Shown here: in pieces, positions 21,369-37,638 of the stretch
Layout: each line of letters begins with the position of its first letter
Position numbering within the stretch: the stretch's first letter is position 1
From: Roseburia sp.
GTDB taxonomy: Bacteria; Bacillota; Clostridia; Lachnospirales; Lachnospiraceae
Assembly (NCBI GenBank): GCA_023662875.1
Contig: JAMPIG010000020.1
Coordinates: 1 to 44,462 of the forward strand
Length of the DNA: 44,462 bases
Direction of reading: 5' to 3'
The notes under the pieces: generated by a model
Database searches by the model: none
What the model saw: the letters and a program-made list of their open reading frames with translations, nothing else
Told to the model about the DNA's origin: nothing
Made by a program: the position numbers and the translations under genes

Positions 21369-21801
21369 CCTCAATTTCCCGAATTATTACCGAATGGAAG
21401 TGGAAATGAGTCATTCCACCGTTGATAAGCTGCAGTCTGTAACTGTATGTCTTCAGCGGGCATTTAAAATTCGTTACCCGGTCTCTCAGGGTAATCACCC
21501 CTGCCTCCGTCTCATACCGATCATAAAACACCAGGCGCATCAGCCAGTTTTCTCCCTCCAGACAATCGATATTGACGATAATCTGATAACTGGTTTCCCC
21601 GTCGATCATAGGCAGCGCCGGTTCGATTCGCTGCATCTGATAGTTGGTCTTCGAATACCACTGCTTTAAAACCGTTCCCGGGGACATGAGATGATTCAGG
21701 TACTCCACATCATCCTTTTTATGATAAGTAATCTCCGAGCCGTAGAGATAGGTATCCGAAACATATTCATTCCAATAAATATTCCACCGTTGTAATTCCA
21801 T
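21253..21801 (-). CDS. asp3: accessory Sec system protein Asp3
   Basis: 182 aa. The N-terminal ~145 residues match Asp3: WNIYWNEYVSDTYLYGSEIT, then the SPGTVLKQWYSKTNYQ and FHFHSVIIREIED segments, a jelly-roll/carbohydrate-binding-like fold in characterised Asp3. It forms a complex with Asp1 and Asp2 and is essential for SRRP export. The last ~36 residues are basic and low in complexity (ASRSGKKPRRKHEGK) and are encoded where secA2 begins in another frame, so this tail may be a by-product of the overlap. It starts 2 nt after the asp2 stop codon. Confidence 0.85.
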   Translation of the reverse strand: MELQRWNIYWNEYVSDTYLYGSEITYHKKDDVEYLNHLMSPGTVLKQWYSKTNYQMQRIEPALPMIDGETSYQIIVNIDCLEGENWLMRLVFYDRYETEAGVITLRDRVTNFKCPLKTYSYRLQLINGGMTHFHFHSVIIREIEDETENTKTDGKASRSGKKPRRKHEGKVGRGAGPSDRRV

Positions 21802-21803
21802 CG

Positions 21804-23309
21804 TCAGTCCTTCTTCACTCTCCCGAAATCCTCCCGCAGAACCTTCTTATACTGGCTTGCAAACCAACTTACGATTCCGTTCGTATCGTCGTTATGGCGG
21901 CCATGTATACCCTTGCCGTACACCTGTACCCCTGTGGAATCCAGATGGGAAATCAGGGTATTATAAGCGTCCGAATCATAATCGTCCTCAATCATATATG
22001 CCACAATAAACTTCGTGTGCTCCCAATTCGCGGCGTCAAATTTCCTCCAGAACCGGTCGTTCAGCCTCTGTACCGCTCCCTTGTCCGTACTGCCTCCCAA
22101 ATACCGCAGCACATCCAGAGAGGTATCGAAATTTTTCGGACGATTCAGCCGAAGATTCCTCGCGATATTTCCCACGCTGGCCAAAGGCTTCCCCAGAATA
22201 ACCGCATGGGGCATAATATCGCAGCCGTAATACAGGGAGCCGTAAGTCCCCATCGAAAGCCCCGCCATGATGACCTGCTCCGGGGAAAATCCCAGCTCAT
22301 CCATGTACCGCCGGATCGTATCGACCATCATCCGCTCATACTCCGCGGAACCCATATAGAAACTGCCGCCCTCCAGCCTGGGCTCCGCTACCAGAAGATA
22401 GGGCGCTCCCATGCCCTCCATCATGTTATAGCCCTCAAAGCCCTGCCTCGTTTTATAACCTGAGAAAAAGACATTCAGCGGCGGCTTCCGGTCTCCAGGA
22501 TTAAAATAGCAGAAAATTTCCTCTCTCTGGGAGGTCACATACCGTTCACCTCCGGGGTTAAAATATCCGTACTCTCCACGGGAGTATCGGTCGTGCAGGG
22601 CAATCACCTGCAGCCTTCCCCTCCCCTTCGCCCGGAGCGAAACAAAGATCCAGCCTCCGGAATCCATGTTATCGATCCTTACTACCTCTTTTAAATCCTC
22701 CTCGCTGAATTCCCAGGTATTCAATACATCTGAAATACTTCCGCTGACAAATCTGGTCAATGATAAAGAAATTTCCACTTCCGGATCCTTCTGATATTCC
22801 AACCAAAGATCCAGCATCTGTCCCTGAAATACCGGAATATTATTTCTCCAGTATACGATCTGTCGAAATTCTTCCCCGTATTCTCCCCGCAGCTCTACAC
22901 TGTAATCTCCATTCCACTTGACGGAGCCGGAAAAGCCCTGGGCAATCGCGACGGCTCCCAAGCGAAATTTTTCCCCGTAGGGATGCGAGTAAAAGAGCCG
23001 GGCCTCCTGCTGAAAAAAATCCTGCAGCTCCGCCTCACGTATCCGCTTCCCCTTCTTCCTCTCGAAATACTCCCCCGCCTCGCCTTTCAGCGCTACCTGC
23101 TCCGTGGCAAACAGGCAATAAGCCTTAGTCCCGCGATATAGAGGCTCCAGCTCCTCCCGCAAAGGCGCTCGATCCAGGAAAACGATATCATACGGCTTTT
23201 TCGGTTTCTCCGTAAACGCCTCCGCATATTCCAGCTTTACTTCCCGTGGCAGGGAATAAATCTCTCTCCAATCTTTACTTCCTAACTGTAGTACCCGAAT
23301 CTCGTCCAA
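21804..23309 (-). CDS. asp2: accessory Sec system protein Asp2, predicted sugar O-acetyltransferase
   Basis: 501 aa from a TTG start at 23309, 35 nt inside the end of asp1 and preceded by GAGGTG. The C-terminal half is an alpha/beta-hydrolase-like domain with nucleophile Ser352 in AGLSMGTYGS and a likely catalytic His in GIHGRHND (469 or 472); acidic residues near 441-445 could complete the triad. In Streptococcus gordonii Asp2 acetylates GlcNAc residues of the SRRP and is also needed for export. The intact triad candidates suggest the enzyme activity is kept here. The N-terminal half is the Asp2 region that pairs with Asp1 and Asp3. Confidence 0.92.
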   Translation of the reverse strand: MDEIRVLQLGSKDWREIYSLPREVKLEYAEAFTEKPKKPYDIVFLDRAPLREELEPLYRGTKAYCLFATEQVALKGEAGEYFERKKGKRIREAELQDFFQQEARLFYSHPYGEKFRLGAVAIAQGFSGSVKWNGDYSVELRGEYGEEFRQIVYWRNNIPVFQGQMLDLWLEYQKDPEVEISLSLTRFVSGSISDVLNTWEFSEEDLKEVVRIDNMDSGGWIFVSLRAKGRGRLQVIALHDRYSRGEYGYFNPGGERYVTSQREEIFCYFNPGDRKPPLNVFFSGYKTRQGFEGYNMMEGMGAPYLLVAEPRLEGGSFYMGSAEYERMMVDTIRRYMDELGFSPEQVIMAGLSMGTYGSLYYGCDIMPHAVILGKPLASVGNIARNLRLNRPKNFDTSLDVLRYLGGSTDKGAVQRLNDRFWRKFDAANWEHTKFIVAYMIEDDYDSDAYNTLISHLDSTGVQVYGKGIHGRHNDDTNGIVSWFASQYKKVLREDFGRVKKD

Positions 23310-24897
23310 TGAACCGAATCACCTCTTCCCATTTTTCCAGCAGCCTTCCCGTGGTATACTGCTTTCCCAGCTCGTAAGAATAAACCGCCGCCTCATTCCA
23401 GCTTGTCAGACTATCCAGATAATAGGCCAGAATATCCTTTACATCTTCTATCTTCCTGACCACAAAGCCGTTCTTTCCATGCTCCACAAACTCCGTGTTT
23501 CGACTTACGATCTGCGGAATTCCCATACTGATCGCCATGATCTGTATATAGACCTCCGATTTATCCTGCAGATCTACCATCACCCTCTGCTCCCGCATAC
23601 ACCTGCTGACCGCCAGCTCATCTACGCATTGCTCCACAAAAAACTTCAGCGGAATTTCCTCCTCCTGATCCAGATTGTTTTCCGCCGTCCCCTTCGGCGT
23701 CCCCTCGATTGCCCAACCCGGTTCCAGCCCCGCCTCACTTAAGATTGCCGCCGTCTGCTCCAATAACCGCCGCCCTCTATCCCATTCCGACCTTCTGGTA
23801 AAGAGATGAACCCTTGCCTTCTCATTTTCCTCCAAATACTCTCCCAGATTCCGAATTAACTCCCGGAAGACCTCTTCCCTTAATCCGTCCACCGGCACCA
23901 TAATCTTCTGGACGTGAAGCTGCTGACTGATACCAAAGTCCACCCGGGAATCAAAAGGCGTAATATCTGTCATTTTCCGTACCAGCCCCGCCGACTCCTT
24001 TTGCAGCCGCTCCATGTTTTCCCGGGAATCTACAATAATGTAATCTGCGCTTTCGACTACATCAATAGATTCCGGATGATTCCGCACCGAATATCTGTCC
24101 GCATAAAAGGAAAGAATCCTTTTCTTTCTCTCCAACGGCCCCCTCAAAAGCGGCACATGGCGTTCCTGCATAGCAACGCAGAAAATATCTTCCCTGGCCG
24201 TCAACTGAAGATAGGCGTCGAATACCTCCTGTATGACTCGATCCATCCCGGAATAGGTTTGACCGGCAAATGTCTTCTCATACTCCCGGTCTCGGTACTG
24301 CAATAGATATTCCGGACATTTCGGATTGATTTCGACACGCCCGTCCTCCTCAAAGCAACGCAGCTTCCAGACGCCGCTTTCCATATAATAGTCCTGATAA
24401 ACCGGCTGCCCCTCCTTATAAACGACGCTGCTGGAAACAAACCCCCGATCGTCGTACAGATTCCGGCGATTGATGACTCCGTTTTGATAAATGTCAATCC
24501 GGATCGGGTTCCCGTCCTCACCGAATTCAATCTGGGCGTACTTTTTCCCGCGCAGCATCGCCACGATAACAAAAGGCGAATATACAAACTCGATCCCCGC
24601 CGGCCAGGCCAGATCATGAAAGGACAACACTCGCGCCCTCTTCCGTTTCACACATTGTATGGCGTCAAAGCAGGACCAGTAGGGCGCGTGATAGACGCCC
24701 TGCCGGTGCAGAAAATGCCGGAAATTTGGCGCAAAGCTGAGCAGGAGAATCTGATAGGGATAAACCCCGCTGCGGTGAAAGAGCTGAATCTGCTTTACCG
24801 TATCGTCAAATTCCGTATGAGTACGCCTTATGTACCAAATCTGTTCACTTTCTGACCACTTTTTTTCCTGATACCATGCCGGAATAAAATATAACAT
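23275..24897 (-). CDS. asp1: accessory Sec system protein Asp1
   Basis: 540 aa, the usual size for Asp1, which has a GT-B-like fold without proven transferase activity. It opens with MLYFIPAWYQEKKWSESEQI, close to the Asp1 N-terminus, and includes RVHLFTRRSEWDRGRRLLEQ-like and SMGIPQIVSRNTEFVEHGKN segments in the C-terminal half. It acts with Asp2 and Asp3 at the membrane in delivering the SRRP to SecA2/SecY2. AGGAG lies just before the ATG. It follows secY2 by 9 nt and overlaps asp2 by 35 nt. Confidence 0.9.
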   Translation of the reverse strand: MLYFIPAWYQEKKWSESEQIWYIRRTHTEFDDTVKQIQLFHRSGVYPYQILLLSFAPNFRHFLHRQGVYHAPYWSCFDAIQCVKRKRARVLSFHDLAWPAGIEFVYSPFVIVAMLRGKKYAQIEFGEDGNPIRIDIYQNGVINRRNLYDDRGFVSSSVVYKEGQPVYQDYYMESGVWKLRCFEEDGRVEINPKCPEYLLQYRDREYEKTFAGQTYSGMDRVIQEVFDAYLQLTAREDIFCVAMQERHVPLLRGPLERKKRILSFYADRYSVRNHPESIDVVESADYIIVDSRENMERLQKESAGLVRKMTDITPFDSRVDFGISQQLHVQKIMVPVDGLREEVFRELIRNLGEYLEENEKARVHLFTRRSEWDRGRRLLEQTAAILSEAGLEPGWAIEGTPKGTAENNLDQEEEIPLKFFVEQCVDELAVSRCMREQRVMVDLQDKSEVYIQIMAISMGIPQIVSRNTEFVEHGKNGFVVRKIEDVKDILAYYLDSLTSWNEAAVYSYELGKQYTTGRLLEKWEEVIRFIGRDSGTTVRK

Positions 24898-24906
24898 CTT
24901 GGGCTC

Positions 24907-26118
24907 CTATATAAAGATAAAATGCTCATAAGCGTCGTAACTGCGGATTGCAACAAATTCCCTGGCAAAGCTGCACGCCAGTCCCGTCAGCATCATGGCC
25001 GAAGAAGGCAGCATCGCCAGCGTCCCTTCTATCTTCCCCTGCATCTGTAAAAGCAGCGGCGTCCCCAGGCAGACACACATAACCGTCGCGCTGAAAAAAC
25101 TGATGCGGAACAGCGTTCTCCGCAGAAACCTCCTGGTCGGCTTCCCGGCATGTAAATCAACAATACTGTCGCCGCTTTTCAGGAACTGCTCCATCGTATC
25201 CTTAGGATTAATCATAAGCATTGTAAAGCCGATCGTCAGGAAATAAATAATCAGCAGATAAACCGCGAAACCCACTGGCTCCGTCATAATCAGATTCCGC
25301 TGCCACCAGACCAGCCCCTCGTTTTCCGGGAAGAAAAACCGAAGGAGATCCACGAAAAGCCTGGGAAGCATAAAGAACGCCGTCGAAAACATGACCGGCA
25401 TCACCCCGACCGGATTATACTTAACCGCCATATAATTTTTATCCGCATAAATATTATGGATGGAGACTCTCTGTAAAGGGAACCTCTTTTCCGTATTTTC
25501 CAAAAGCAGCATGATAAAAAACATTACGACTGACATTACAATCGGCAGAACCAGTTCTCTCCCGGTATGCCCTTTTACGTTATTATAGATTCCCGTAACA
25601 ATATTAAAGAGAAACAGTACCGTAGGGCCGCCGATCCCATATTTCTGGTTCAGCTTCGACATCCAGAGCATCAGGAAAGCGCCGACGATCATTTCCAGAA
25701 ACGCTGTCGTCTTTACCAGATACAATACATCTCCCCCGATACGATAGGTCAGCCCGTTCACCTTAAGAAACGCCTGAGCCACACATAACCCCAGCATCCC
25801 CGCCAACGTAATCTGCTGTATCCTGTTCGGCGACATTTTTTTCTTATAATCGGAGCTCACGCAGAGAAGCGCCAGCTGGCAGACCAGACTCGAAATCATC
25901 TGCGGGAAAATTCCCAGCGCAAAAATCGAGTATTCGTTCGCGTCGCCGCCGATTACCTGAATCAGCAGATTGTCAGCGTCCGCCGCATTCCCGCGATAAA
26001 CCTGCGTATCTACCCCGTAAAGAGGGATAAACCTTCCGATCATATAAACGATCAGGATTATCAACGTAAAAAGCAGCTTATATCCTGTTATCTTTTCCTT
26101 TTTTTCTACCTTCGCCAA
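24907..26118 (-). CDS. secY2: accessory Sec translocase channel SecY2
   Basis: 403 aa from a TTG start with GGGAG 6 nt before it. Ten membrane helices are expected and visible (the first is TLIILIVYMIGRFIPLYGVD). SecY features include FALGIFPQMISSLVCQLALL (helix 2 region), LYLVKTTAFLEMIVGAFLML and VGFAVYLLIIYFLTIGFTML. It is shorter than housekeeping SecY, as accessory SecY2 proteins are. It forms the membrane channel used by the glycosylated SRRP. No SecE or SecG homologue is recognised in the locus, though a 48-aa membrane peptide lies upstream. It begins 102 nt after that peptide, beyond a strong stem-loop. Confidence 0.92.
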   Translation of the reverse strand: MAKVEKKEKITGYKLLFTLIILIVYMIGRFIPLYGVDTQVYRGNAADADNLLIQVIGGDANEYSIFALGIFPQMISSLVCQLALLCVSSDYKKKMSPNRIQQITLAGMLGLCVAQAFLKVNGLTYRIGGDVLYLVKTTAFLEMIVGAFLMLWMSKLNQKYGIGGPTVLFLFNIVTGIYNNVKGHTGRELVLPIVMSVVMFFIMLLLENTEKRFPLQRVSIHNIYADKNYMAVKYNPVGVMPVMFSTAFFMLPRLFVDLLRFFFPENEGLVWWQRNLIMTEPVGFAVYLLIIYFLTIGFTMLMINPKDTMEQFLKSGDSIVDLHAGKPTRRFLRRTLFRISFFSATVMCVCLGTPLLLQMQGKIEGTLAMLPSSAMMLTGLACSFAREFVAIRSYDAYEHFIFI

Positions 26119-26373: not shown

Positions 26374-29300
26374 TTATCCTCTCTTTCCATTCTTCAGATC
26401 ATTGATTTTCTTCTTATCTTTCCTGGTACTTCCTACTCCGTAGGCCGCTGTGCCGCCTGCCAGAATCAGCTCCAGGAAGTGGAAGACACAATGCTTCGCT
26501 CCTTCGATTACGCCTGCGCTTGCAAGAGGCGCTGTCTCTTCCTCGATATCGATGCTTTCCGTATCCTCCTCGTTCTCAACTGCCAGAGGCGGTACTTCCT
26601 CCTCGATCTCCAATCCGTCGTCTTCCGGTGCCGGAGCCAGAGGCGCTGCCTCGTCATCAATATCTATCTCGGCTTCCGCTGCTTCGCTTGCGCTGGTAGA
26701 CTCGGACGCGCTTACGGATTCGGATGCGCTGGTGCTTGCTGCTTCACTTGCCGCTGTGCTGGCTGCTGTGCTGGCTTCGGTACTTGCCGTTTCGCTGGCT
26801 GCTGTGCTGGCTTCAGTACTTGCCGTTTCGCTGGCTGCTGTGCTGGCTTCGGTACTTGCCGTTGTCGATGCCGCTGTGCTTGCCGCTGTTGACGCCGCGT
26901 CGCTGGCTGCTGTCGATGCTGCTGTGCTGGCTGCCTCGCTTGCTGCCGTACTTGCGCTTGCGCTGTCCGACTCGCTGGTGCTTACGCTGCCCGAGACGCT
27001 TGCGCTGATGCTCTCCGACTCGCTTGCGCTTACGCTGCCCGAGATGCTTGCGCTGATGCTCTCCGACTCGCTTGCGCTGGTGCTTGCGCTTGTCGATGCG
27101 CTGGTACTTGCGCTTGTGGAAGCACTCGTCGATGCACTAGTACTTGCACTGGTCGATGCGCTTGTCGATGCGCTGGTGCTTGCACTGGTCGATGCACTGG
27201 TACTTGCGCTTGTGGAAGCGCTTGTCGATGCGCTGGTACTTGCGCTCGTGGAAGCACTCGTCGATGCGCTCGTGCTTGCACTGGTAGAAGCACTTGTCGA
27301 TGCGCTGGTGCTTGCGCTGGTCGATGCGCTGGTACTTGCGCTAGTTGATGCGCTCGTGCTTGCGCTCGTGGATGCGCTGGTGCTTGCACTGGTAGAAGCA
27401 CTTGTCGATGCGCTGGTACTTGCGCTCGTGGATGCGCTGGTCGATGCACTCGTGCTTGCGCTAGTTGATGCGCTGGTACTTGCACTCGTCGATGCACTGG
27501 TACTTGCGCTCGTCGATGCGCTCGTGCTTGCGCTGGTAGAAGCACTTGTCGATGCGCTGGTGCTTGCGCTAGTCGATGCACTGGTGCTTGCGCTAGTCGA
27601 TGCACTGGTGCTTGCACTCGTGGAAGCACTGGTGCTTGCACTCGTGGAAGCACTGGTGCTTGCGCTCGTCGATGCACTCGTGGAAGCACTGGTACTTGCA
27701 CTCGTCGATGCACTCGTACTTGCGCTAGTAGAAGCACTGGTGCTTGCACTCGTTGATGCGCTGGTACTTGCGCTCGTGCTTGCACTCGTCGAGGCACTGG
27801 TGCTTGCGCTCGTCGATGCGCTGGTACTTGCGCTCGTCGATGCGCTGGTACTTGCGCTCGTCGATGCGCTGGTACTTGCGCTCGTCGATGCGCTGGTACT
27901 TGCGCTCGTCGATGCGCTGGTGCTTGCGCTAGTAGAAGCACTCGTTGATGCGCTGGTGCTTGCGCTGGTGGAAGCACTCGTCGAAGCACTGGTGCTTGCG
28001 CTTGTGGAAGCACTCGTTGATGCGCTCGTGCTTGCGCTCGTTGATGCGCTGGTGCTTGCACTGGTAGAAGCACTTGTTGATGCGCTGGTACTTGCGCTGG
28101 TGGAAGCACTCGTCGACGCGCTCGTGGAAGCACTGGTGCTTGCGCTAGTAGAAGCACTCGTTGATGCGCTGGTACTTGCGCTCGTGGAAGCACTCGTTGA
28201 TGCGCTGGTACTTGCGCTCGTGGAAGCACTCGTCGATGCGCTGGTAGAAGCACTCGTGCTTGCGCTCGTCGATGCACTGGTACTTGCGCTTGTGGAAGCA
28301 CTCGTCGATGCGCTGGTACTTGCGCTCGTAGAAGCGCTTGTCGATGCGCTGGTGCTTGCGCTAGTCGATGCGCTGGTACTTGCGCTTGTGGATGCACTCG
28401 TCGATGCGCTCGTGCTTGCGCTCGTCGATGCACTGGTGCTTGCGCTAGTCGATGCGCTCGTGCTTGCGCTCGTCGATGCGCTGGTACTTGCACTGGTAGA
28501 AGCACTTGTCGATGCGCTCGTGCTTGCGCTCGTGGAAGCACTTGTCGATGCGCTGGTGCTTGCGCTAGTCGATGCACTGGTGCTTACGCTGGTAGAAGCA
28601 CTTGTCGATGCACTGGTACTTGCGCTTGTCGATGCGCTGGTGCTTGCGCTGGTTGATGCACTCGTGCTTGCGCTCGTGGAAGCACTTGTCGATGCGCTGG
28701 TGCTTGCGCTGGTTGATGCACTCGTGCTTGCGCTCGTGGAAGCACTTGTCGATGCGCTGGTGCTTGCGCTCGTGGAAGCGCTGGTACTTGCACTCGTTGA
28801 TGCGCTGGTGCTTGCGCTGGTCGATACACTCGTGCTTGCACTCGTTGAAGCACTCGTGCTTGCGCTCGTCGATGCGCTGGTAGAAGCACTCGTGCTTGCG
28901 CTTGTCGATGCGCTAGTGCTTGCACTCGTGGAAGCGCTGGTACTTGCGCTCGTCGATGCACTCGTGCTTGCGCTGGTAGAAGCACTCGTTGATGCGCTCG
29001 TACTTGCGCTCGTTGATGCGCTCGTACTTGCGCTCGTGGATGCACTGGTACTTGCGCTCGTGCTTGCACTGGTACTTGCACTGGTCGATGCACTCGTGCT
29101 TGCGCTTGTCGATGCGCTGGTAGAAGCGCTCGTCGATGCGCTGGTACTTGCGCTCGTGGAGGCACTTGTTGATGCGCTCGTGCTTGCACTCGTTGATGCA
29201 CTTACGCTATCACTATACGCCGTACTCGCTGCATTTGCTTCCTCACCTTCCGTTGTATTTCTGTTATAGACATAAGTTGTTCTAGTCGCCTGGGACCAAT

Positions 29301-31065
29301 AGCTCGTATCTCCACTAACTGTAAATTTCTTGATGGAGTTACCGTTTTCATCAAATACGTGATAATCGCCGTTTGCATCCGTTCCCAGCCTGCTCGCCTT
29401 TTTAATTTCACTATAGTTCCCTTTTCCATTTGCTTGTGTATAAAACTTACGATTACTGCCTATAACAAGCTGATTATTAGTTCCTTCCTCTGTAAGCTTA
29501 TGCCAATTTCCTTCTTGATCCTGAACAACTGCATATTTATAATCTGTTCCAACCAATTTATCTGTTCCACCTGCAACGACATACGACTCGTTGCCGACCT
29601 TATAACTGGTTGTTGAAGTACTCTCACCATTATAGCCATTGTTATTATAGACTGTGCTTCCTCTATTGTTTTTATATGTCGTATAACGCGCTTCACTTCC
29701 ATCAGCACTTACGGTAAACAGCTCTCTTTGCGTGACAACGCCATTCCTATCTTTTGTTTCCGAAAGGACATATGAGACTGTTCCATCGGCGTCAATCTGT
29801 CTGCGCAAAAAAGTCCGCTCTGTACCATTTATTTTAATCGTAATATTTTCCTTGCCCTCATCGGTGCTAACTGTGTACTCAATCGTTGGAGCTTCAGCGT
29901 CTTCGCCGAATTCCTTTTTATCTTGGTTATTCTTCTGCGTGGTTGTTACTTCTTCTCCGCGAACTCCGTCATAATTAACTTCCGCCTGCTTTACAATTAC
30001 CTTCCTTCCGACCTCATCATACGTATAAACCCGAGTAAGTTCCTTCCCCTCGCTATCTTTATAATATACCACATAAGACTTATCACCATTCGGTTCGATT
30101 TCTTTGCTTAAAGTCAACTTCTCACTCTTGATCTGGAACCTAATAATGGCTTCCGCAACCGCCTGCGCCGAGCCCGTTCCAGCTTCATAAGCCGCAAGCG
30201 CATTTGCATAGGCCGCAAGCTCATCCGCCGTTCCCTCGATCGCCGCCAGAGCCATGATCTCCTCTGTCGTATCTCCGTCCAGCGCATAACTAGCCGGAGC
30301 ATACGATCTAATCATGTTGAAAAGCGACATTACCAATCCTTGATCCGTCTCACTCGCTGCGCTGCTCTCGGACAAGCTGGTTGACTCGCTCTCCGATGTA
30401 CTGGTAGACTCGGATACGCTGGTCGAAGCGCTGACGCTCTCAGACTCGGAAACCACAACCGATTCGCTTTCGGACACGCTGGTCGAAGCAGAGTCGGACA
30501 GGCTGGTCGATGCGCTGGCGGAATCGGACTCAGACGCTACAATCGAATCGCTCTCGCTCTCGGACAGACGAACGGAATCAGACTCGGACGCCACAGCGGA
30601 GTCCCTTTCACTCTCGGACAGGCTGACTGCATCCGATTCAGACGCTACGATCGAATCGCTCTCACTCTCCGGCAGACGAACGGAATCAGACTCAGACGCC
30701 ACGATACTATCAGACTCGGATGCCACGACAGAATCACTCTCCGACAAACGGGCGGAGTCAGACTCGGATACAATAGCGCTGTCAGACTCGGACGCCACAG
30801 CGGATACGCTCTCACTCGCTCTACCGCTTGCCAACTCGCTCTCTCGCGCGCTGACTGCAATACTATTCTCGGTATCTACAACTGAAACCGATTCTAACGG
30901 AGTCTCTGTAGTAGACGCTTCAAGCTCCTCCGAAACGCTCGTGCTACCCTCCATCGAGTTATCTGATTCCATTGCATAAACCACATTGTAGTCCTGCATC
31001 AGATTCGCTCCGCCGAGCATCACTCCCGTTGCCGCAATACTTTTTAAGATGTCCTTTTTCTTCAT
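26374..31065 (-). CDS. serine-rich repeat glycoprotein adhesin, aSec substrate
   Basis: 1563 aa. Residues 1-31 are a short signal peptide with glycines in its core ([12 protein letters not shown]) and a V-Y-A cleavage site. Residues ~75-245 are the first Ser-rich region, built on ASESDS units. Residues ~265-615 are a non-repetitive domain of mixed charge, the likely ligand-binding region. Residues ~620-1330 are the second Ser-rich region of SAST repeats, extended to ~1455 by SxSES and AAST variants. The C-terminus has three acidic motifs ([27 protein letters not shown]), a hydrophobic stretch ([18 protein letters not shown]) and a basic tail. There is no LPXTG and no KxYKxGKxW signal, unlike streptococcal SRRPs. 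The ATG has AGGAG 10 nt upstream. As the first large gene of the aSec operon it is clearly the export substrate; its ligand is unknown. Confidence 0.9.
26700..27071 (-). repeat. degenerate Ser/Ala-rich repeats at the C-terminal side of the SAST tract
   Basis: Two imperfect [15 protein letters not shown] units, then a series of [15 protein letters not shown] units in place of SAST. They form a transition between the glycosylated stalk and the acidic membrane-proximal part of the SRRP. Confidence 0.8.
27072..29200 (-). repeat. SAST tandem repeat (second Ser-rich region)
   Basis: About 175 copies of a 12-nt unit coding Ser-Ala-Ser-Thr, with a few Val substitutions. A 24-nt higher order is common: one Ser of each pair of units uses TCN and the others AGY, as in TCG-ACG-AGC-GCA followed by AGT-ACC-AGC-GCA. 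Third positions vary, so the DNA is less uniform than the protein. Such tracts can change length by slippage or recombination, and assembly errors are possible here. Confidence 0.95.
30345..30845 (-). repeat. ASESDS repeats (first Ser-rich region)
   Basis: Units such as VASESDS, RLSESDS and IVASESDS repeat about 15-20 times near the N-terminus of the SRRP, then give way to [11 protein letters not shown]-type sequence. Acidic, unlike the neutral SAST tract. Confidence 0.85.
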
Positions 31066-31104
31066 AATCTGCTTTCTCCTCTCCCGATTATTTCTCGTTT
31101 CTCC

Positions 31105-31215
31105 CTATAATTTTGCTCCGCCTTTTTTAAATAGAACATTCGCCACGCTTCCGTGGCCTTCCTTCTCTTCAATAACCACTATATCAGGAGGGGTATCTCG
31201 CAAAGTGTCTCGCAT
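31105..31215 (-). CDS. possible 36-aa leader ORF upstream of the SRRP gene
   Basis: ATG-initiated frame of 36 codons beginning MRDTLRDTPPDIVVIEEKEG and ending FKKGGAKL, 39 nt before the SRRP start. Codon use resembles real coding sequence, and the same frame is open upstream through the A-rich stretch. No good ribosome site precedes the ATG, so it may be a leader peptide, a gene remnant or chance. Confidence 0.25.
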   Translation of the reverse strand: MRDTLRDTPPDIVVIEEKEGHGSVANVLFKKGGAKL

Positions 31216-31265
31216 CGCTTTTTCAAGAAACTTTTTTTTAATTTTTTCATTTTTTTTGCCAAAAA

Positions 31266-31303
31266 AAGACCGGGACGCCCGCTTTCTGCCGCTTCCCGGT
31301 CTT
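31266..31303 (-). terminator. intrinsic terminator between the upstream Rpn gene and the SRRP operon
   Basis: Stem AAGACCGGGA / TCCCGGTCTT (10 bp) with an 18-nt loop, followed on the minus strand by TTTTT. It lies 24 nt past the Rpn stop codon and should isolate the SRRP operon from upstream transcription. The SRRP promoter must therefore lie within 31066-31265; I could not pick out a convincing -35/-10 pair there. Confidence 0.85.
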
Positions 31304-31326
31304 GCTATGTCCGTTATAAATTTCTT

Positions 31327-32295
31327 TCAGGCAGGATGCGCGTCCAGCCTCTTAAGAACCGACTCGCAATCATAATCTGGCGCAAATTCTTTCGCCGCGT
31401 TGCAGATTGGCTCGATTACAGAAAGCTCTTCGACCAAATCCTCAGCGATCTTTTCAACCGACTGATTCAGCCGCAGCTTTTTGCAAATCTGAGTGACCAG
31501 CCGATTTCTGTCCCCGTCCATCCGGCCGATCTCGATTCCCTGTCCTCGTCCGATCTCGATTCCCTTTTCCATCCCAATCTCTTCGCTGTCCTCCCTGAGC
31601 AGCCTCTCGTAAAGCTCCTGGTCAAAATCATAGACTCCCATTTCCACAATCTCCTTCCTATGCTCCCCGAAAAACTCTGCAAGGATATTCTCCGACACGC
31701 ACTCATCCACAGCCTGACGCACTGCTTCCTCCGCACCAAGCCCGGCGTCCCTCTTCTTCCGGGCCTTCTCTACAAAGGACATATACCCCCTCAGGCTCTC
31801 GCATTTCTCCAAAAGTTCCCTGCTATAGCCCGGATTAATATTGATCACCGTTACCTTCAGTTCCAGCTCCGGCTCCGCTTCCTCTCTCTCGAACAGCTCC
31901 GATAGCCAGTATACCTGCTCCTCCGGCTGCTCTTCTACTCCGTTATAGAAGACAATAAACCTTGGTGCCGGAATCTTTATCTGCTTCCGGCGGTACAACA
32001 TTCCCGGCGGCGCGATCTTCTTCAATTCTTCCGCCACATAGTACAGGTTCCGAAGCGCCATATTCGGATTCGCACTGGATTGCTGCTCGCAGAGATTTAA
32101 TCTGGAGTCAACTACAAACGCGGCGTCATTCTTCACCTTCATGCAGAACGCTTCCTCCAGCGTGACGACCTCCAACTCCTCTTCCTTTTCATAAGATGTA
32201 TTGTTGACTGCGTTATACAGGGACAGCAAATTCTTCCTTTCTCTGTATAGCAGGCAGAACACATTGTCCTTGTGGTTCCTTGCCATGTTTGACAT
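31327..32295 (-). CDS. Rpn-family PD-(D/E)XK nuclease / putative transposase (second copy)
   Basis: 322 aa from ATG at 32295 with GAGGAG 8 nt upstream. It is related to the gene at 8410-9291: KDNVFCLLYRERKNLLSLYN, then VDSRLNLCEQQSSANPNMAL (Asp and E-x-Q of the nuclease core) and FIVFYNGVEEQPEEQV. Near residues 240-262 a Gly/Arg-rich segment repeats IEIGRGQGIEIGRMDG, a register-slipped repeat seen in this family. The shared architecture but modest identity points to separate arrivals, not a recent duplication. It stands upstream of the SRRP operon, separated from it by a strong terminator, and has its own promoter at 32477-32505. Confidence 0.85.
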   Translation of the reverse strand: MSNMARNHKDNVFCLLYRERKNLLSLYNAVNNTSYEKEEELEVVTLEEAFCMKVKNDAAFVVDSRLNLCEQQSSANPNMALRNLYYVAEELKKIAPPGMLYRRKQIKIPAPRFIVFYNGVEEQPEEQVYWLSELFEREEAEPELELKVTVININPGYSRELLEKCESLRGYMSFVEKARKKRDAGLGAEEAVRQAVDECVSENILAEFFGEHRKEIVEMGVYDFDQELYERLLREDSEEIGMEKGIEIGRGQGIEIGRMDGDRNRLVTQICKKLRLNQSVEKIAEDLVEELSVIEPICNAAKEFAPDYDCESVLKRLDAHPA

Positions 32296-32476
32296 AGCGT
32301 ACTCTCCTCTCCGCAGGAGAATAGTAATGCCTCATTTTGCTTTTCTCCCGCTTTTCTATTGATCGTTTGAATTTAAAGCAGGATTTTCAAAGATGATTTT
32401 CGACGGAAATAGCGGCGAAACGCGCTATCCGCTTGAACGAACAGATTGAATTTATGAAAGTGTCTGCTTTCCTTTA

Positions 32477-32505
32477 AGTATAACATAAGGCAAGATTCCT
32501 GGCAA
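32477..32505 (-). promoter_or_regulatory. sigma-A promoter with extended -10 for the second Rpn gene
   Basis: On the minus strand TTGCCA, 17 nt, TATACT, with TGT before the -10 hexamer (TGn extension). It implies a 5' leader of about 175 nt, in which I see no regulatory structure. Confidence 0.65.
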
Positions 32506-32695
32506 TAAAATTTATTCGTCCGGGCCTCAGCGCAGAAGCGATATGGTAAAAACAGATTGCTTTATCATCAAAAAAGGTATGCTGGAGAAGTTTTTCTCCG
32601 TGGACTACGCCGGGTGCGGCGATCTGTTCGAGGGGCTTTCCATCTGGAGGGAAAAAGGTGCTGATTGGCGATGCGGGCGCGGTTTGTCCGACGCC
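32506..32695. other. intergenic region after the BTAD regulator gene
   Basis: No complete gene. The stop codon of the regulator gene lies in a small hairpin (GACGC TTAAG GCGTC) without a T-run. A plus-strand frame from 32543 starts MVKTDCFIIKKGMLEKFF, which vaguely recalls the start of leucine-rich-repeat surface proteins, but it runs into the antisense of the regulator gene and is not called. Confidence 0.4.
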
Positions 32696-33982
32696 TTAAG
32701 CGTCCAGCTCCTCCTCCCTCAGCTCCTGCGTCATATCCGCATAATACCAGAGTTCTCCCTTGCCGCCCTGTTTTGCATAGGCGGATTCAATCCGGGAGAA
32801 GACAGGGCTGCAGAACTCCTTCTCGATATTGACGAGCATCAGGATAAAATGCCGGTTGCCGTATCTGGTATAGGCGTCCCCGATTCGCAGAGACGCGCCC
32901 AGAACACCCTTTAAAAGCGTCATCTCCTCCTGCAGGTTCATCTGCTTCTGGCCGTTCCTGATTTCCTTCCGGCTCAGGGTCAGGAACATCAAAACCGCCT
33001 CAAAATGGTTTCTCCCCTTGGCCCGGGCCACCAGTCGACAGTAGTCCACAAAGCTGGGATAGGTACAGTAATAGGCTCCTTTTACGGTTTTCTCACCGAA
33101 GATCGCTCTCTTAATATCGTTCTTTCGACCCATAAATACGCGATCCATATTCCGCCAGTCGCCCGGGCTGCCTGTGCCTTTCCTGTGATTTTTGTCGTTC
33201 AGCTCCAGCTTTTCAAAGCACTCCTGCATCTCCGCCGTGGGAGGCGTTCCAAGCTCTCTGGCGTACAGCTCCATCGTGCTGTTATAAATGTCAAGCGCTT
33301 CGTCGTAGCGATAGATTTCCAGATTGCATTTTATCAGCCGGGTCTGCCAGTTATCAAAAGGGTAGATCGAGGCTGCTTTCGTATAAAGGGCAAGCCGATT
33401 TTTATAATCGTTATTTTTTATATATTCCTTTTCCAGTTCCTGTATCGTATAAACGTAGAGACTCTTGTAATAGTCGCTTTTATGAAAAAACCAGGTTTCA
33501 GACTGGTTGGCGGGAAGCAGTTCGCCAGAGTACATCTCGTTCGCCCTGCGAAGCAATTCGATCCGCTCCGCGGAATCAGAGCGCCCCTCCCGATCCGCTT
33601 TTATGGACTCCTCTATCGTCCGTTCGAGTTTCATCACATCCGTCTCCAACGGCGTACTGATTTTCAAACGGCATTTTCCCTCGCTCAGCTCGACATACTC
33701 TTCCTCCGGAAGACCACAGGCTACCAGCTGCCCTTTCAGCCGGTAAATCAGATTATTCAGATTTCGATTGCGGTTTGCAGCCTCCGCACGGCTCTCATTC
33801 CATCCGTACAGGTTATCGATCAACTCATTCTTGGGGATTCCGTTCGGATAGGTCAGAAGGAGCATCTGAAGCAGCCGAACAGACTTCGAGCTTCCTATTT
33901 TATTCAGTTTTAACGCTTCCTCGCCGTAGTACATTGCGAAGCCTCCAAGTAGCTGCACCCGTAAAATCCTGCCCGACGACAT
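32696..33982 (-). CDS. BTAD-domain (SARP/AfsR-like) transcriptional regulator with GGDEF-like C-terminus
   Basis: 428 aa. Residues ~6-95 are an OmpR-type winged helix (ILRVQLLGGFAMYYGEEALK; NELIDNLYGWNE; NRNLNNLIYRLKGQL). Residues ~105-255 form the bacterial transcriptional activation domain of TPR-like helices (RRANEMYSGELLPANQSETW, DEALDIYNSTMELYAREL). The C-terminal ~130 residues end in RIGDAYTRYGNRHFILMLVN, which resembles a GGDEF-fold domain that has lost its active-site motif, a combination common in Lachnospiraceae regulators. It should bind DNA and activate transcription; the targets are unknown. It starts 54 nt after the AP2 gene on the same strand, so the invertible promoter would transcribe both. 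The next locus downstream is the SRRP/aSec cluster. Confidence 0.88.
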   Translation of the reverse strand: MSSGRILRVQLLGGFAMYYGEEALKLNKIGSSKSVRLLQMLLLTYPNGIPKNELIDNLYGWNESRAEAANRNRNLNNLIYRLKGQLVACGLPEEEYVELSEGKCRLKISTPLETDVMKLERTIEESIKADREGRSDSAERIELLRRANEMYSGELLPANQSETWFFHKSDYYKSLYVYTIQELEKEYIKNNDYKNRLALYTKAASIYPFDNWQTRLIKCNLEIYRYDEALDIYNSTMELYARELGTPPTAEMQECFEKLELNDKNHRKGTGSPGDWRNMDRVFMGRKNDIKRAIFGEKTVKGAYYCTYPSFVDYCRLVARAKGRNHFEAVLMFLTLSRKEIRNGQKQMNLQEEMTLLKGVLGASLRIGDAYTRYGNRHFILMLVNIEKEFCSPVFSRIESAYAKQGGKGELWYYADMTQELREEELDA

Positions 33983-34036
33983 CCCGGTTCCCTCCTGATT
34001 CCTTTTCCCTCACCCGCTGTCTCTTGCTTCGGAACA

Positions 34037-34930
34037 TCAATCCGGTTCTCTCTCTCCTTCCAGACGTTCCAGAAATTTATCATAAATCTCCTCGCTCCGC
34101 TGTCTGGCTTTCACCGCGTCGGTCAGCTGTTCAAAGGAGCCGAGATATTTTGTTTTCCCCTGAAAGGTAATCTGAGCCACCCAGAGTCCGCGCCTCCTGT
34201 TAAAATAGACCCCGTTATATCCGCTGGTATTACTTTTAATCAGCCGCCCGCTTTTGATCGCACGCAGCATCGCGACGGAGGTTCCCTCCGCCAACCCCAG
34301 ATTCTCTTTATAGACGCTGGCCTGCAGGCAGCCGCAGCTTTTCGTCTTCCCGCTCTGCAGGAGCGTCTGGCCTACGACAGTCTCCCTCCCGCAGTCGCAT
34401 CGGCATCTCCATCGGTGCATCCCCGCACGTTTTCCGGCGTATTCTGTAACCGTCAACTTTCCGAAGCGTTTCCCGACGAAATCCTTTCGCTCCGGATGAC
34501 TCAGGCAGCCGCAGCTCTTGTGTCCCCCGCACACCAGCCGCCCGATCTCGACCTCCGCTTCCCTCCCGCAGTCGCACCTGCAGATCCATATTGTTCCGCC
34601 CCCGCAGCCACGCTTTTTGGTGGGTTGGATTGCTGTCAGCCTTCCAAAACGCATCCCTGAGATATCCCTCTGGCCCGGTCCTACCGCAGAGCGGCAGCCG
34701 CAGTCTCGTACTGTTTCCCTCTGGAGACAGCGGGTATCCAGCAGGAGCTCTCCTCCGCAGTCGCAGCGGCAGCGCCAGACAATATAGCCGGACTTTCTTC
34801 TCTCGGTGGGTTCCGTCACCGTCAGCATACCGACCCTGCTTCCAATCCCTATCACGCCAGCCCCTTCTCCCTTTGCCTGATTAATTCCGCAGGCTACGGC
34901 GGCCTCCCGCAGGAATCTCTCCCAAACCAT
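34037..34930 (-). CDS. AP2-domain DNA-binding protein with three Cys-cluster repeats
   Basis: 297 aa from ATG at 34930, which lacks a good ribosome site. A GTG at 34855, with AAGGGG 5 nt upstream and closer to the first repeat, is a plausible alternative (272 aa). Three repeats (about residues 52-79, 115-142, 174-201) share W-[RI]-C-R-C-D-C-G followed by a closing CGC, with a FGKLTVTE-like strand before each; the clustered Cys could bind zinc. Residues 233-290 are an AP2 domain (SGYNGVYFNRRRGLWVAQIT; KYLGSFEQLTDAVKARQ), as in phage and mobile-element proteins. It is the first gene downstream of the inversion switch and probably co-transcribed with the BTAD regulator. A regulator or recombination accessory role is likely, but which cannot be told. 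Confidence 0.85.
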   Translation of the reverse strand: MVWERFLREAAVACGINQAKGEGAGVIGIGSRVGMLTVTEPTERRKSGYIVWRCRCDCGGELLLDTRCLQRETVRDCGCRSAVGPGQRDISGMRFGRLTAIQPTKKRGCGGGTIWICRCDCGREAEVEIGRLVCGGHKSCGCLSHPERKDFVGKRFGKLTVTEYAGKRAGMHRWRCRCDCGRETVVGQTLLQSGKTKSCGCLQASVYKENLGLAEGTSVAMLRAIKSGRLIKSNTSGYNGVYFNRRRGLWVAQITFQGKTKYLGSFEQLTDAVKARQRSEEIYDKFLERLEGEREPD

Positions 34931-34976
34931 GCGGCAAAGACATCCCTCAGAAGTTAAAGATAGATTCCCCGAAAAA

Positions 34977-35000
34977 AGGACAGAATCACCATTTTGTCCT
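34977..35000. repeat. left inverted repeat of the invertible segment, also a terminator-like hairpin
   Basis: 24 nt, the exact reverse complement of 35323-35346. Read on the minus strand it is AGGACAAAATGG then TGATTCTGTCCT. The two halves are themselves near-palindromic (arms AGGACARAAT), as in tyrosine-recombinase core sites. With flanking AAA and TTTTTT the minus-strand RNA would form a 9-bp stem, one mismatch, three more pairs and a GGTG loop followed by U residues. Confidence 0.92.
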
Positions 35001-35322
35001 TTTATCCAATCGATCCGTGTCGGCCACGAGAATCTTTGGGTGCCTTCTGAAGGCGATATATGACAATGGATCTCCTGCTTCGCTTGAATCCTAATGTTAT
35101 GAACTAAAAAAACATAAAAGCAAGGGTTCCGACTTTCTCTTATCCGGAGCCTCCGCTTTCATGCCCTGAAATCTGCAAGTCAACTATATTTGTCTTTTAT
35201 CGTCTTAAATAGCTTACAGGATTTGTACAAGCTATGACGTAAAACCACCTTGAATTTTACGTTTTCCGGTGGTAAAATGAGTCCATAAATAGCAATTCTG
35301 CAGGCGCTTTGTTTTTCATAGG
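35001..35322. mobile_element. 322-bp invertible promoter segment (phase-variation switch)
   Basis: The segment is bounded by perfect 24-bp inverted repeats and lies directly between a tyrosine recombinase gene and the AP2-BTAD regulatory operon. It contains one strong promoter (35250-35278), which points right in this sequence, away from the AP2 gene, so this assembly shows the OFF state. Inversion would aim it at the AP2 start about 45 nt outside the left repeat. No gene of its own is evident, though the frame of the AP2 gene stays open without an ATG for about 75 codons into the segment. Confidence 0.85.
35250..35278 (+). promoter_or_regulatory. invertible sigma-A promoter
   Basis: TTGAAT, exactly 17 nt, TAAAAT. 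It is overlaid by interleaved inverted sequences: ACGTAAAA (35238-35245) with TTTTACGT (35255-35262), and CCACC (35246-35249 region) with GGTGG (35268-35272), which could be an operator. Further on, AGGAGG (35320-35325) and ATG (35331) straddle the repeat boundary, so transcripts from this promoter carry a ribosome site leading into the inverted repeat. Confidence 0.8.
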
Positions 35323-35346
35323 AGGACAAAATGGTGATTCTGTCCT
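35323..35346. repeat. right inverted repeat of the invertible segment
   Basis: 24 nt, perfect reverse complement of 34977-35000, ending 4 nt before the recombinase stop codon. Here the flanks do not extend the internal palindrome, and no T-run follows on the minus strand, so unlike the left copy it should not terminate transcription. Confidence 0.92.
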
Positions 35347-35350
35347 TATG

Positions 35351-36250
35351 TCAGCTGATCAGCCCCAGCTTCTCCATCTGGCGCGCATGTGTCTCCCCTG
35401 TTGATATCAGATAAATCCTCGTTGTCTCGATACTGCTGTGTCCAAGCACGTCCGCCAGCTTTACAATATCCCGACAGACTTGATAAAAGCTTCTGGCAAA
35501 AAGATGGCGCAGATTATGTGGAAATACCTTGGCAGGGTTTACCGACGCCTTCCCGCATAAGTCCTTCATCTCCTGCCAAATCTGGCTGCGGGACATTCCG
35601 CGACCGTTTCGGGTCACAAAGATTTCTCCCGACCGGATTCCGTGCTTTCTGGCGTAATCCGTCAGCTTTTTACAAAGCTTGCCCGGCAGGAGGATCGTCC
35701 GCACCTTCCCTTTCAGAGAAATATCCGCGCGCCTCTGTTTCAGCGCTTCCATAGTAATATACTTTACCTCGGACACGCGAATACCGGTAGCGCAGACTGT
35801 CTCTAAGAGCAGCGCCAGACGTTCCTTGCCCGCGCCTTTTGCGGTTTCCAGAAGCCGTCCATACTCCGCCCGGCTCAGTTCCTTTTCCTGATCCCGGAAA
35901 GTGCGCCGCTGTATTTTCAGAAATTTCACTCTGCAGTCCTCCCAGCCCAGAAATCTCAGCAAGCTGTTCAGGGAGGAGAGCATAGCGTTTATGGTGGACG
36001 GGGCAAGTCCCGACGAGACCAAGTACGCCTTCCAGCCCGCGGCGGACTCCTTATCGAAGAGGGCGGCTTCCTCCGTTGCGGTCTCTCCAGGCGCTGCTGT
36101 CCCGGCGGCGGCTTCCTTCCCGAACTCCTTCAGCCATCCTTCAAAAGCCAAGATATCACGCAGGTATTTCTTGACCGTGTCCGCCGCATACTCCTCTTGT
36201 ACGAGATGTCCCCTATAATCAGTTATGTTTTTTTCTGTCAACCTGTACAT
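35351..36250 (-). CDS. tyrosine recombinase, likely invertase of the adjacent switch
   Basis: 299 aa. Residues ~5-110 are the SAM-like DNA-binding domain (YAADTVKKYLRDILAFEGWL), interrupted near 45-62 by a low-complexity Ala/Glu/Thr insertion. The catalytic set appears complete: Arg158 in ATGIRVSE, Lys182 in LKGKVRTILLP, His245-x-x-Arg248 in PHNLRHLFA, His271 in LGHSS and Tyr280 in SIETTRIY. It cuts and rejoins DNA through a 3'-phosphotyrosine. The gene ends 4 nt from the right inverted repeat, the usual setting for a dedicated invertase. It starts at ATG 36250 after AAGGAAG. Transcription of it runs toward the switch, so in OFF its message and the invertible promoter converge. No other phage or integrative-element genes are nearby, which argues against a prophage integrase. 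Confidence 0.9.
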   Translation of the reverse strand: MYRLTEKNITDYRGHLVQEEYAADTVKKYLRDILAFEGWLKEFGKEAAAGTAAPGETATEEAALFDKESAAGWKAYLVSSGLAPSTINAMLSSLNSLLRFLGWEDCRVKFLKIQRRTFRDQEKELSRAEYGRLLETAKGAGKERLALLLETVCATGIRVSEVKYITMEALKQRRADISLKGKVRTILLPGKLCKKLTDYARKHGIRSGEIFVTRNGRGMSRSQIWQEMKDLCGKASVNPAKVFPHNLRHLFARSFYQVCRDIVKLADVLGHSSIETTRIYLISTGETHARQMEKLGLIS

Positions 36251-36289
36251 TTTTCTTCCTTTCCGCCTTGCGCTGACTTGTTGATAAAA

Positions 36290-36450
36290 AAGTGCCGCAC
36301 AGCGGCACTTAGAAGAATGCTTCGCATTCTTCCCTTGCTACGATGCGATTTCCTATAAGATAAAAAAGCGTCCTGTCGGACGCTTTTGCTGCGACGAAGT
36401 TTCCTATAGAGTAAAGGAAAGCCCTTGAAACATTCCGTTTCAAGGGCTTT
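36290..36450 (-). terminator. cluster of four terminator-like hairpins after glgD
   Basis: In minus-strand order: 36418-36450 (14-bp stem, AAAGCCCTTGAAAC), 36364-36387 (AAAAGCGTCC stem, then T-run), 36312-36332 (GAAGAATGC stem) and 36290-36310 (AAGTGCCGC stem, then TTTTATC). Two or three have proper T-runs. The first probably ends the glgCD transcript. The linking sequences are imperfect copies of one another (TTTCCTATA and TTGCTRCGA blocks), so this is a tandem repeated module. An 80-codon frame across it is not credible. Confidence 0.8.
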
Positions 36451-36513
36451 TCTTCTCTCAATTTCGTCTCATAAACGCTTCCCTTCATGCTGCCAACGGC
36501 GGCATAAATAAAC

Positions 36514-37638
36514 TTATCCCATGGTATAGCGCTCGTTCTTCTCGACCACAATCCGGATCTGGCCTTCCTCGCCTACATACCGGGTATTGGCCCGGATGGT
36601 ATCCCGGCTCTCTACGATACAGTTTTCAATATAGGTATTATCCCCGATATAGACGTTGTTGAGAATAATGGAGTTCTTGATAACGCAGTTATTTCCGATA
36701 AAGCTGTTCTTGAAAATAACCGAATTCTCCACCGTCCCGTTGATAATACATCCGCTGGAAATCAGGCTGTTCTTCACGCTGGAGCCCACGTTGTACTTTG
36801 CCGGCGGCAGGTCGTCTACCTTGGAGTAGATATCGGGATATTGCTTGAAGAAATAATTCCTGACCTCGGGCTTCAGGAAGTCCATGTTCGTCCGGTAATA
36901 ATCCTCGACAGACGCGATATTGCGCCAGTAATCCCGAATCTTATAGCCGTAAATTCTCTTCAGATCCTTGTAGCGTACCAGAATATCCCGCACAAAGTCG
37001 TACCGATCCTCCTCCGCGCACTTCTCGATCATCTCGATCAGCTGGCGGCGGCGGAGCACATAGATCCCGCAGGAGATGGTATTGGTCTTCGCCTGCAGCG
37101 GCTTCTCCTCGATCTCCTCCACCCGGTAGTCCTCGTTCATGCGCACCGTGCCGAAACGCTCGATATTGGTTCCCGGCTCCATCTCCCGGCAGACCATGGT
37201 GATATCCGCCTTCTTCTCGATATGATACTCCAGCACCTTATTAAAGTCCAGCTTATAAACTCCGTCGCCGGAGGCGATTACTACGTAAGGCTCGTGGCTG
37301 TTCTTCAGGAAGGACAGGTTCTGGTAGATCGCGTCGGCCGTGCCTCTGTACCAGTTGCTGTTGTCCGCCGTGACGGTGGGCGTCAGTACCGCCAGTCCGC
37401 CCTGCTTACGTCCGAAGTCCCACCATTTCGAGGAGCTTAAATGCTCGTTCAGGCTTCTCGCGTTATACTGCGTCAGAACGGCTACCTTCTGGATATGGGA
37501 ATTGGACATGTTGCTCAATGTAAAGTCAATGCTGCGGTAGCTTCCCGCAACGGGCATCGCGCAAACCGCTCTCTTCTGCGACAATGCTTTCATTCTGTGG
37601 TTATTACCGCCTGCTAAAACGATTCCGATTGCTCTCAC
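36514..37638 (-). CDS. glgD: glucose-1-phosphate adenylyltransferase regulatory subunit GlgD
   Basis: 374 aa. N-terminal nucleotidyltransferase fold ([20 protein letters not shown]) and C-terminal left-handed beta-helix with hexapeptide repeats ([20 protein letters not shown]). Compared with GlgC, the Arg-rich nucleotide-binding loop is changed ([10 protein letters not shown] in place of [10 protein letters not shown]), as in GlgD proteins, which are poorly or not catalytic alone and modulate GlgC in a hetero-oligomer. The complex makes ADP-glucose for glycogen synthesis. Its start overlaps the end of glgC by 4 nt (ATGA), so the two are translationally coupled. A terminator follows about 60 nt later. 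No glgA, glgB or glgP is in the window. Confidence 0.95.

Follow-up and report, generated by a model that had tools for sequence, protein, structure and literature searches.

A putative DNA-inversion switch, captured OFF, ahead of an accessory Sec/serine-rich adhesin locus in Roseburia sp.

In the fim system of E. coli (fimB/fimE-fimS-fimA), a tyrosine recombinase is encoded beside a promoter segment bounded by inverted repeats, which drives adjacent genes for a surface structure (PMC2784873, PMC7446863). Clostridial inversion switches are described for C. difficile at cwpV, flgB and cmrRST, with RecV as the catalyst at cwpV and flgB (PMC2784873, PMC6837544); cwpV is a surface-protein case (PMC2784873), and the small invertible sites of Clostridia are reported chiefly from the neighbourhood of signalling and chemotaxis genes (PMC5903667). 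Serine-rich repeat protein (SRRP) adhesins exported by the accessory Sec (aSec) system, studied mainly in streptococci, staphylococci and lactobacilli, are described as having a role in colonisation and disease. Here we analyse a stretch of 44,462 nucleotides from Roseburia sp. (GCA_023662875.1, contig JAMPIG010000020.1, positions 1 to 44,462 of the forward strand; the window), in which a 322-bp segment between inverted repeats, with a tyrosine recombinase gene on one side, lies ahead of two regulator genes (AP2-like and BTAD) and an aSec/SRRP island. We consider it highly probable that this is a site-specific DNA-inversion switch, OFF as captured, which would give bistable display of a glycosylated adhesin through the AP2 and BTAD proteins. 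This reading is carried by the repeats, the intact recombinase, the placement of promoter- and terminator-like elements, the gene content and the inversion of equivalent switches in related genomes.

The window differs from fim in having a single adjacent recombinase, AP2-like and BTAD genes as the nearest targets and, as presumed output, a glycosylated SRRP with its accessory Sec system. At cwpV, recV is not adjacent, the promoter lies outside the switch and the targets are others (PMC2784873), whereas the cassettes described here each have a recombinase of their own. By this comparison, the window switch would work like fim, with a cwpV-like terminator element added. At flgB and cmrRST an invertible element is combined with a cyclic di-GMP (c-di-GMP) riboswitch (PMC6837544), as in some of the sister cassettes below. 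In the hCom2 study, inverton group 139 and invertase group 35 link Clostridia invertons to nearby tyrosine recombinases; one example there has similar arm and segment lengths by its printed coordinates, a likeness of lengths only, and the term 'serine-rich' is absent from the main text (PMC11892184). No paper linking an aSec/SRRP locus with DNA inversion was found in the open-licence literature, judged mostly from abstracts, and one may exist elsewhere. We regard the switch as ordinary in principle and new in its target, its circuit and the degree of natural evidence for it.

A sequence-only reading of this stretch had placed two perfect 24-bp inverted repeats, each nearly palindromic within itself, around the segment, and a tyrosine recombinase gene with a complete catalytic set 4 nt outside the right one. 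All of this stands. The 24-nt arms (34977–35000 and 35323–35346) are perfect, and exact pairing even runs one base further, to 25 nt: the left or operon-side (distal) repeat occupies residues 34976–35000 on the plus strand and is a presumed recombinase site, and the right or recombinase-side (proximal) repeat occupies 35323–35347 on the minus strand. The extended arms pair at 89% over 35 nt, and the pairing within each arm makes both of them individually near-palindromic. For the composition of the window, 6e-8 perfect 24-nt inverted pairs no more than 600 nt apart are expected by chance, and the longest inverted pair among 20 mononucleotide shuffles of the window measured 14 nt. Between the repeats lies the presumed invertible segment (35001–35322, 322 bp, strand-neutral), of a layout that flips in relatives. 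Read towards the operon (34971–35000, minus strand), the left arm also forms a hairpin followed by TTTTTT (-10.8 kcal/mol), a possible attenuator.

The recombinase gene (35351–36250, minus strand) encodes an Xer-like protein of 299 amino acids, the presumed invertase, and its stop codon is 4 nt from the 24-nt arm; glgD and glgC lie beyond it, on the side away from the segment. The protein matches Pfam Phage_integrase (1.2e-22) and also SAM_1, and its R158, K182, H245, R248, H271 and Y280, which we take to be the six catalytic residues, align with XerD. All six are retained in 29 of 29 aligned recombinases. A search of genome contigs with the recombinase protein gave 33 loci, and homologues at E ≤1e-40 occur in 30 of 138 genomes of the genus, nine of the 30 having more than one match. 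Association with repeats was counted over open reading frames (ORFs) of at least 150 amino acids with 500 nt of downstream sequence in L007–L035, L071–L090 and L118–L139. An inverted pair that starts within 60 nt of the stop codon accompanies 22 of 34 recombinases of at least 40% identity, none of 10 below 40% and none of 320 other ORFs; a looser pair rule gives 26 of 34, 0 of 10 more distant homologues and 0 of 320. The recombinases of L008, L010 and L017 fall outside the 34, a longer opposite-strand ORF having been picked there, and all three have repeat pairs. Two further recombinase-inverton cassettes are present in the window's own genome, on contigs C96 (L071) and C118 (L007), both preceding BTAD genes and giant ORFs, that of C96 with LPXTG and that of C118 cut by the contig end. 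The C118 paralogue has the same layout and a site identical to that of the window in 21 of 22 nt; cross-talk between the two sites is conceivable.

The promoter-like site that the sequence-only reading had placed between the repeats, TTGAAT-17-TAAAAT, is present at 35250–35278 on the plus strand and is an extended -10 site (TGn, here TGG, before the -10). As that reading had it, the layout points this site away from the AP2-BTAD operon, towards the 3' end of the recombinase gene, and a flip would aim it at the operon. Promoter-like matches are common (6 found against 4.3 expected in 30800–36600), so the match alone proves nothing, and its support lies in its conserved position. Among the 33 segments with both arms and an unambiguous promoter (L086, with similar promoter scores both ways, was omitted), the best promoter begins 58–86 nt from an arm in 30; the same was true of 19 of 990 shuffles in 2-mer blocks, a procedure that does not strictly preserve dinucleotides. 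Of these 30 promoters, seven are directed away from the recombinase (ON) and 23 towards it, as are those of the remaining three segments, and OFF is the commoner state in these assemblies (26 of 33 segments).

Absent from the earlier reading is a terminator-like hairpin with a T-run inside the segment (35105–35167, minus strand), which faces the operon in the present orientation; its energy is -12.9 kcal/mol in the scan and -23.1 kcal/mol when a longer stretch is folded, part of the T-run then being paired as well. At -14 kcal/mol or below, 16 of the 33 segments have a terminator-like hairpin on the strand opposite to the promoter and four have one on the promoter strand, against 1.0 and 0.5 expected, respectively, by dinucleotide shuffling; the window hairpin, at -12.9 kcal/mol, is outside these 16. 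At -8 kcal/mol the counts are 23 against 8.9 expected on the opposite strand and 11 against 5.1 on the same strand. Promoter and terminator being antiparallel, the OFF state would therefore combine a promoter pointing away with a terminator facing the operon, blocking leakage from the co-directional recombinase gene.

Both orientations are found at equivalent loci of related genomes (G026/G124, C13/C94, C81/C86 and C17/C341), a comparison that had been proposed as a check. At their aSec/SRRP locus, genomes G026 and G124 have a recombinase, a segment, a fused AP2-BTAD gene (564 amino acids, by Pfam) and an SRRP gene. The flanks are colinear, with 5 and 0 differences over 1 kb either side, and the SecY2 gene is 100% identical over 1200 nt; the 258-bp segment with its 21-bp arms shows 1 mismatch when reverse-complemented and 153 when compared directly. 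The segment is ON in G026 and OFF in G124, and their sole mismatch is in the TG motif that extends the -10. The SRRP and SecY2 genes of G124 are on separate contigs, linked by likeness to G026.

Acetatifactor muris DSM 23669 (G041, of the same genus as the window) has four such cassettes, one of them before an apparent aSec/SRRP locus; both junctions of one cassette are represented among its contigs, and a second cassette shows a fork. Contigs C13 and C94 have exactly 127 nt in common, comprising the recombinase end and the arm (the last 127 nt of C13 are the reverse complement of part of C94), and then enter opposite ends of one segment. This overlap fits a fork in a k=127 assembly graph, from which we infer that the reads of this one isolate probably contained both orientations. 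The end of contig C20 coincides with the arm core, and 127 nt of this contig overlap C81. C81 carries a segment in the ON orientation, an inactive recombinase paralogue and an SRRP gene with repeats matching the start of contig C11 (SecY2-Asp1-Asp2); against the OFF segment of G019 C86 it scores 177.5 flipped and 16.5 direct. The presumed joins of C81 with C11 and of G019 C86 with C196 pass through repeats. For A. muris C17 and G019 C341 the scores are 176 flipped and 17.5 direct, the maximum of 300 shuffles being 25. In C17/C341, C81/C86 and G026/G124 the internal promoter reverses together with the segment. Two A. muris junction patterns were sought in viral contigs, without a match. The single relative from IMG/VR (L149), considered as evidence of flipping, was rejected: over 7927 nt it does not differ from the A. 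muris C104 locus, and it has that locus's orientation. The earlier claim of an invertible promoter held OFF is largely supported, equivalent switches having flipped in relatives; at the window's own locus a single orientation is seen.

The first gene that a flipped promoter would reach (34037–34930; this and all further features of the locus are on the minus strand) encodes a protein of 297 amino acids in which Cys motifs recur; its C-terminus has an AP2-like match of 20.8 bits, which is under the Pfam cut-off of 33.3. The repeated WRCRCDCG...KSCGC motifs are perhaps zinc-binding repeats, and relatives of the protein are standalone in L028, L031 and L082 and fused to BTAD in L125. It is followed by a BTAD transcriptional activator-like protein (32696–33982, 428 amino acids, Pfam 44.6 bits), which the SARP model AfsR of NCBIfam matches weakly (19.2 bits); Pfam names BTAD as an activator domain. 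The next gene (31327–32295) encodes a 322-residue protein with no Pfam or NCBIfam match at 0.001, which by eye we take to resemble Rpn-type proteins, and a terminator-like hairpin (31260–31303, -22.1 kcal/mol, T7) separates it from the adhesin gene. The presumed adhesin is an SRRP of 1563 amino acids (26374–31065) with SAST repeats and 49% Ser+Thr. A C-terminal LPXTG anchor is usual in SRRPs; no [LIV]PxTG is present in the last 60 residues of this one. By eye, the protein and its relatives have a common signal-like N-terminus (GGA...NVVYA or similar).

Beyond the adhesin gene lie SecY2 (24907–26118, Pfam SecY), Asp1 (23275–24897), Asp2 (21804–23309), Asp3 (21253–21801), SecA2 (19029–21374, Pfam SecA domains), GtfA (17517–19016, Pfam GtfA_EBD), the glycosylation chaperone GtfB (16174–17547, TIGR02919, 505.8 bits against a cut-off of 338.3) and three further glycosyltransferases (GT-D, GT2 and GT2; 9736–16156). 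By Pfam and NCBIfam matches, SecA2, SecY2, Asp1-3, GtfA and GtfB are all together in the window, and the island is an accessory Sec/SRRP locus. Streptococcal and lactobacillar loci are alike in containing an SRRP, SecA2, SecY2, Asp1-3, GtfA, GtfB and extra glycosyltransferases; in the window, unlike in those loci, a recombinase-inverton and AP2/BTAD genes precede, and the SRRP is without a C-terminal LPXTG. The controlled genes had been read as regulators rather than a surface protein, which is right for the nearest ones and incomplete for the locus, since the SRRP adhesin and accessory Sec genes follow.

Before the SRRP gene, an extended -10 with a poor -35 was found by eye as a candidate promoter; direct repeats TGCGAGA, also seen by eye, precede this -10. 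Simple read-through from the switch to the SRRP gene is unlikely, given the terminator-like hairpin and the candidate promoters between them. With a terminator and a weak candidate promoter before the adhesin gene, control would probably go via the BTAD protein, and BTAD activation of the SRRP gene is the step that we tentatively prefer. A BTAD or AP2-BTAD gene is also upstream of the SRRP gene in G026, G124 and G457, about 300 nt before it in G457 (BTAD) and about 650 nt in G026, with the same spacing in G124 (AP2-BTAD). A 125-residue protein family (68% identical) is encoded between regulator and surface-protein gene at L125:8856-9230 (approximate) and L012:9550-9927.

In the mechanism that we propose, the adjacent tyrosine recombinase would cut and rejoin the DNA at the two near-palindromic repeats and so flip the 322-bp segment. 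When OFF, the internal promoter would fire towards the 3' end of the recombinase gene, by its layout giving a transcript antisense to that gene, and the oppositely directed terminator would keep recombinase-gene transcripts out of the AP2-BTAD genes. A flip of the window copy would aim the promoter at AP2 and BTAD, upon which the BTAD activator would turn on the SRRP, accessory Sec and glycosylation genes, and the expected outcome is a bistable display of glycosylated adhesin.

Several observations weigh against this reading. The window segment is seen in the OFF orientation only, with no reversed copy in its own genome. The A. muris C104 locus has the same orientation in its IMG/VR copy, the reversed junction of C20/C81 was sought in the A. 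muris genome and no such contig was found, and the two orientations of the C13/C94 switch come from contig overlaps, not from reads. In the other genomes searched there is no near-identical recombinase (the best match is 81% over part of the protein), and eight of the 34 recombinases are without a pair under the loose rule (L025, L027, L029, L032, L033, L082, L087 and L090); L032 does have a pair, farther from its shortened ORF. Within the locus, the six-T hairpin is placed right where transcription would leave on the operon side, and it might act as an attenuator in the ON state, and the terminator-like hairpin before the SRRP gene, together with a promoter-like site before the gene of the 322-residue protein, makes the link between switch and adhesin indirect. 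A 125-residue protein gene intervenes between AP2-BTAD and SRRP in G026, and the aSec cassettes of G026 and G019 C86 are without a good opposite-strand terminator (0.0 and -4.1). Finally, no recombinase lies upstream at the aSec locus of G052, in the genus, on a contig that ends about 4.9 kb upstream of the first SRRP, and outside the genus none of the four loci with at least 7 kb in view (G457, G426, G327 and G359) carries the cassette. An exact-site search of viral contigs for the reversed window locus gave no match.

Transcription could instead start upstream, for instance at the recombinase promoter, with the flip removing or restoring the terminator and the internal promoter being incidental. 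Such a mechanism, termination with the promoter outside the inverted region, has been proposed for cwpV (PMC2784873), but it is an unlikely account of the present locus: in 30 of 33 segments the extended -10 promoter is at an almost constant distance from the arm, its direction changes with that of the segment, and G026, without an opposite-strand terminator by scan, nevertheless has the same layout. The internal promoter and the terminator probably act together. A little less likely again is that recombinase and repeats are what is left of an integrated element, or form a switch that has become locked and no longer flips here. The single orientation of the window locus would fit such a fossil, although its 25-nt arms are perfect, its reading frame and catalytic residues are intact, the layout recurs, with an almost identical site, at the C118 paralogue, and related loci flip. 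We find very improbable a third account, in which the recombinase would serve integration or dimer resolution and act at these repeats without any bearing on gene control. Among curated families the nearest are indeed Xer-type, but the scores are far below their cut-offs (at best 118.8 of 220 for XerA, then 107.3 of 329.6 for XerD and 103.4 of 335.15 for XerC), the inverted-pair sites carry a conserved promoter and adjoin surface-protein genes in many cassettes, and, apart from the recombinase, no scanned protein of the window matches a phage family (there is a weak Rpn/transposase match at 8410–9360). An inversion switch acting through the AP2 and BTAD proteins is the reading that we prefer.

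Asp2 (PF16929) is found above cut-off in 15 of the 138 genomes of the genus and in 10 of 299 sampled genomes of the family, the window's own genome being counted in both. Among 22 stretches taken upstream of Asp2, the first letter falls within a serine-rich ORF in 10 and within SecY2 or Asp1 in four, which hides the upstream side of these. The cassette is present at five of the six aSec loci of the genus where this side is visible or can be linked, on one contig in the window and G026 and linked by inference in G124, A. muris and G019. It is not seen in G441, outside the genus, with about 5 kb in view. In the recombinase tree, from which G124 was omitted as a near-copy of G026, the aSec-linked enzymes fall at three places: A. 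muris C20 pairs with G019 C86 (100/99), the window enzyme with C118 of its own genome (100/99), and G026 belongs to a group of four rows (100/99). A single group of aSec recombinases is rejected by approximately unbiased (AU) tests (p 3e-5 with three rows and 6e-46 with four); these p-values are indicative, the tests having used 25 of the 35 tree rows and been run once the tree had been seen. Judged from these sequences, recruitment of the cassette, or swapping of its recombinase, appears to have happened more than once at aSec loci.

In sister cassettes, recombinase-like genes that have lost most catalytic residues, the Tyr included, lie just past the operon-side arm. Ten were aligned (L074:7394-8200, L012:7435-8292, L014:2066-2902, L011:1783-2631, L010:7251-8072, L081:5474-6316, L077:3771-4613 on the minus strand, L082:7439-8389, L021:7115-7942 and L078:7342-8436 on the minus strand), and in the nine with both arms found the gene is the first after the operon-side arm. 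The Lys, first His, second His and Tyr are lost in 9 of 9 proteins and the second Arg in 8 of 9, while the first Arg is kept in 8 of 9. They have a conserved new C-terminus (PRCLWKMY...EQLTVGWE in most), and of six proteins scanned, five match a SAM-like N-terminal family and two an integrase family, over cut-off. Strong homologues (E <1e-50) occur in five of the 138 genus genomes (G019, G041, G164, G026 and G170), and none at this level in the window's own genome. At L163 (G170:C29, 2298-4100 in reverse complement coordinates), a tandem pair of recombinase paralogues is closest to the inactive type. The inactive paralogue is possibly a feedback factor of the ON state.

Targets of other cassettes include LPXTG and vWA/SpaA proteins. 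Of 33 other loci scanned, eight have riboswitches of the c-di-GMP-I class (RF01051) that attain the gathering score, at or just before a large surface gene where that gene is in view: L077:3389-3504 (minus strand), L081:6478-6790, L074:8466-8709 and L082:8544-8901, the last three with two matches each, and L009:4767-4830, L031:7711-7818, L022:7866-7957 and L023:7967-8039. The window contains none at the gathering threshold. As a side reading, the riboswitch cassettes would put inversion and a second messenger in series.

More tentatively, and with doubt prevailing, we suggest a modular flip cassette, made up of its own recombinase, near-palindromic sites and a promoter and terminator in antiparallel arrangement, that was recruited, or had its recombinase swapped, at least three times before aSec loci, and that stands also before other giant surface proteins, within one gut genus. 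Its second stages would be interchangeable: AP2 plus BTAD in the window, or, in sister cassettes, an inactive recombinase paralogue whose production would be confined to the ON state, with c-di-GMP riboswitches after it in some. If so, DNA inversion would be one gate on adhesin display and a second signal another, and the inactive recombinase might feed back on the flip. If gut Lachnospiraceae do flip their SRRP on and off, a single clone would be a heritable mixture with respect to adhesion, glycan display and exposure to the immune system and to phages.
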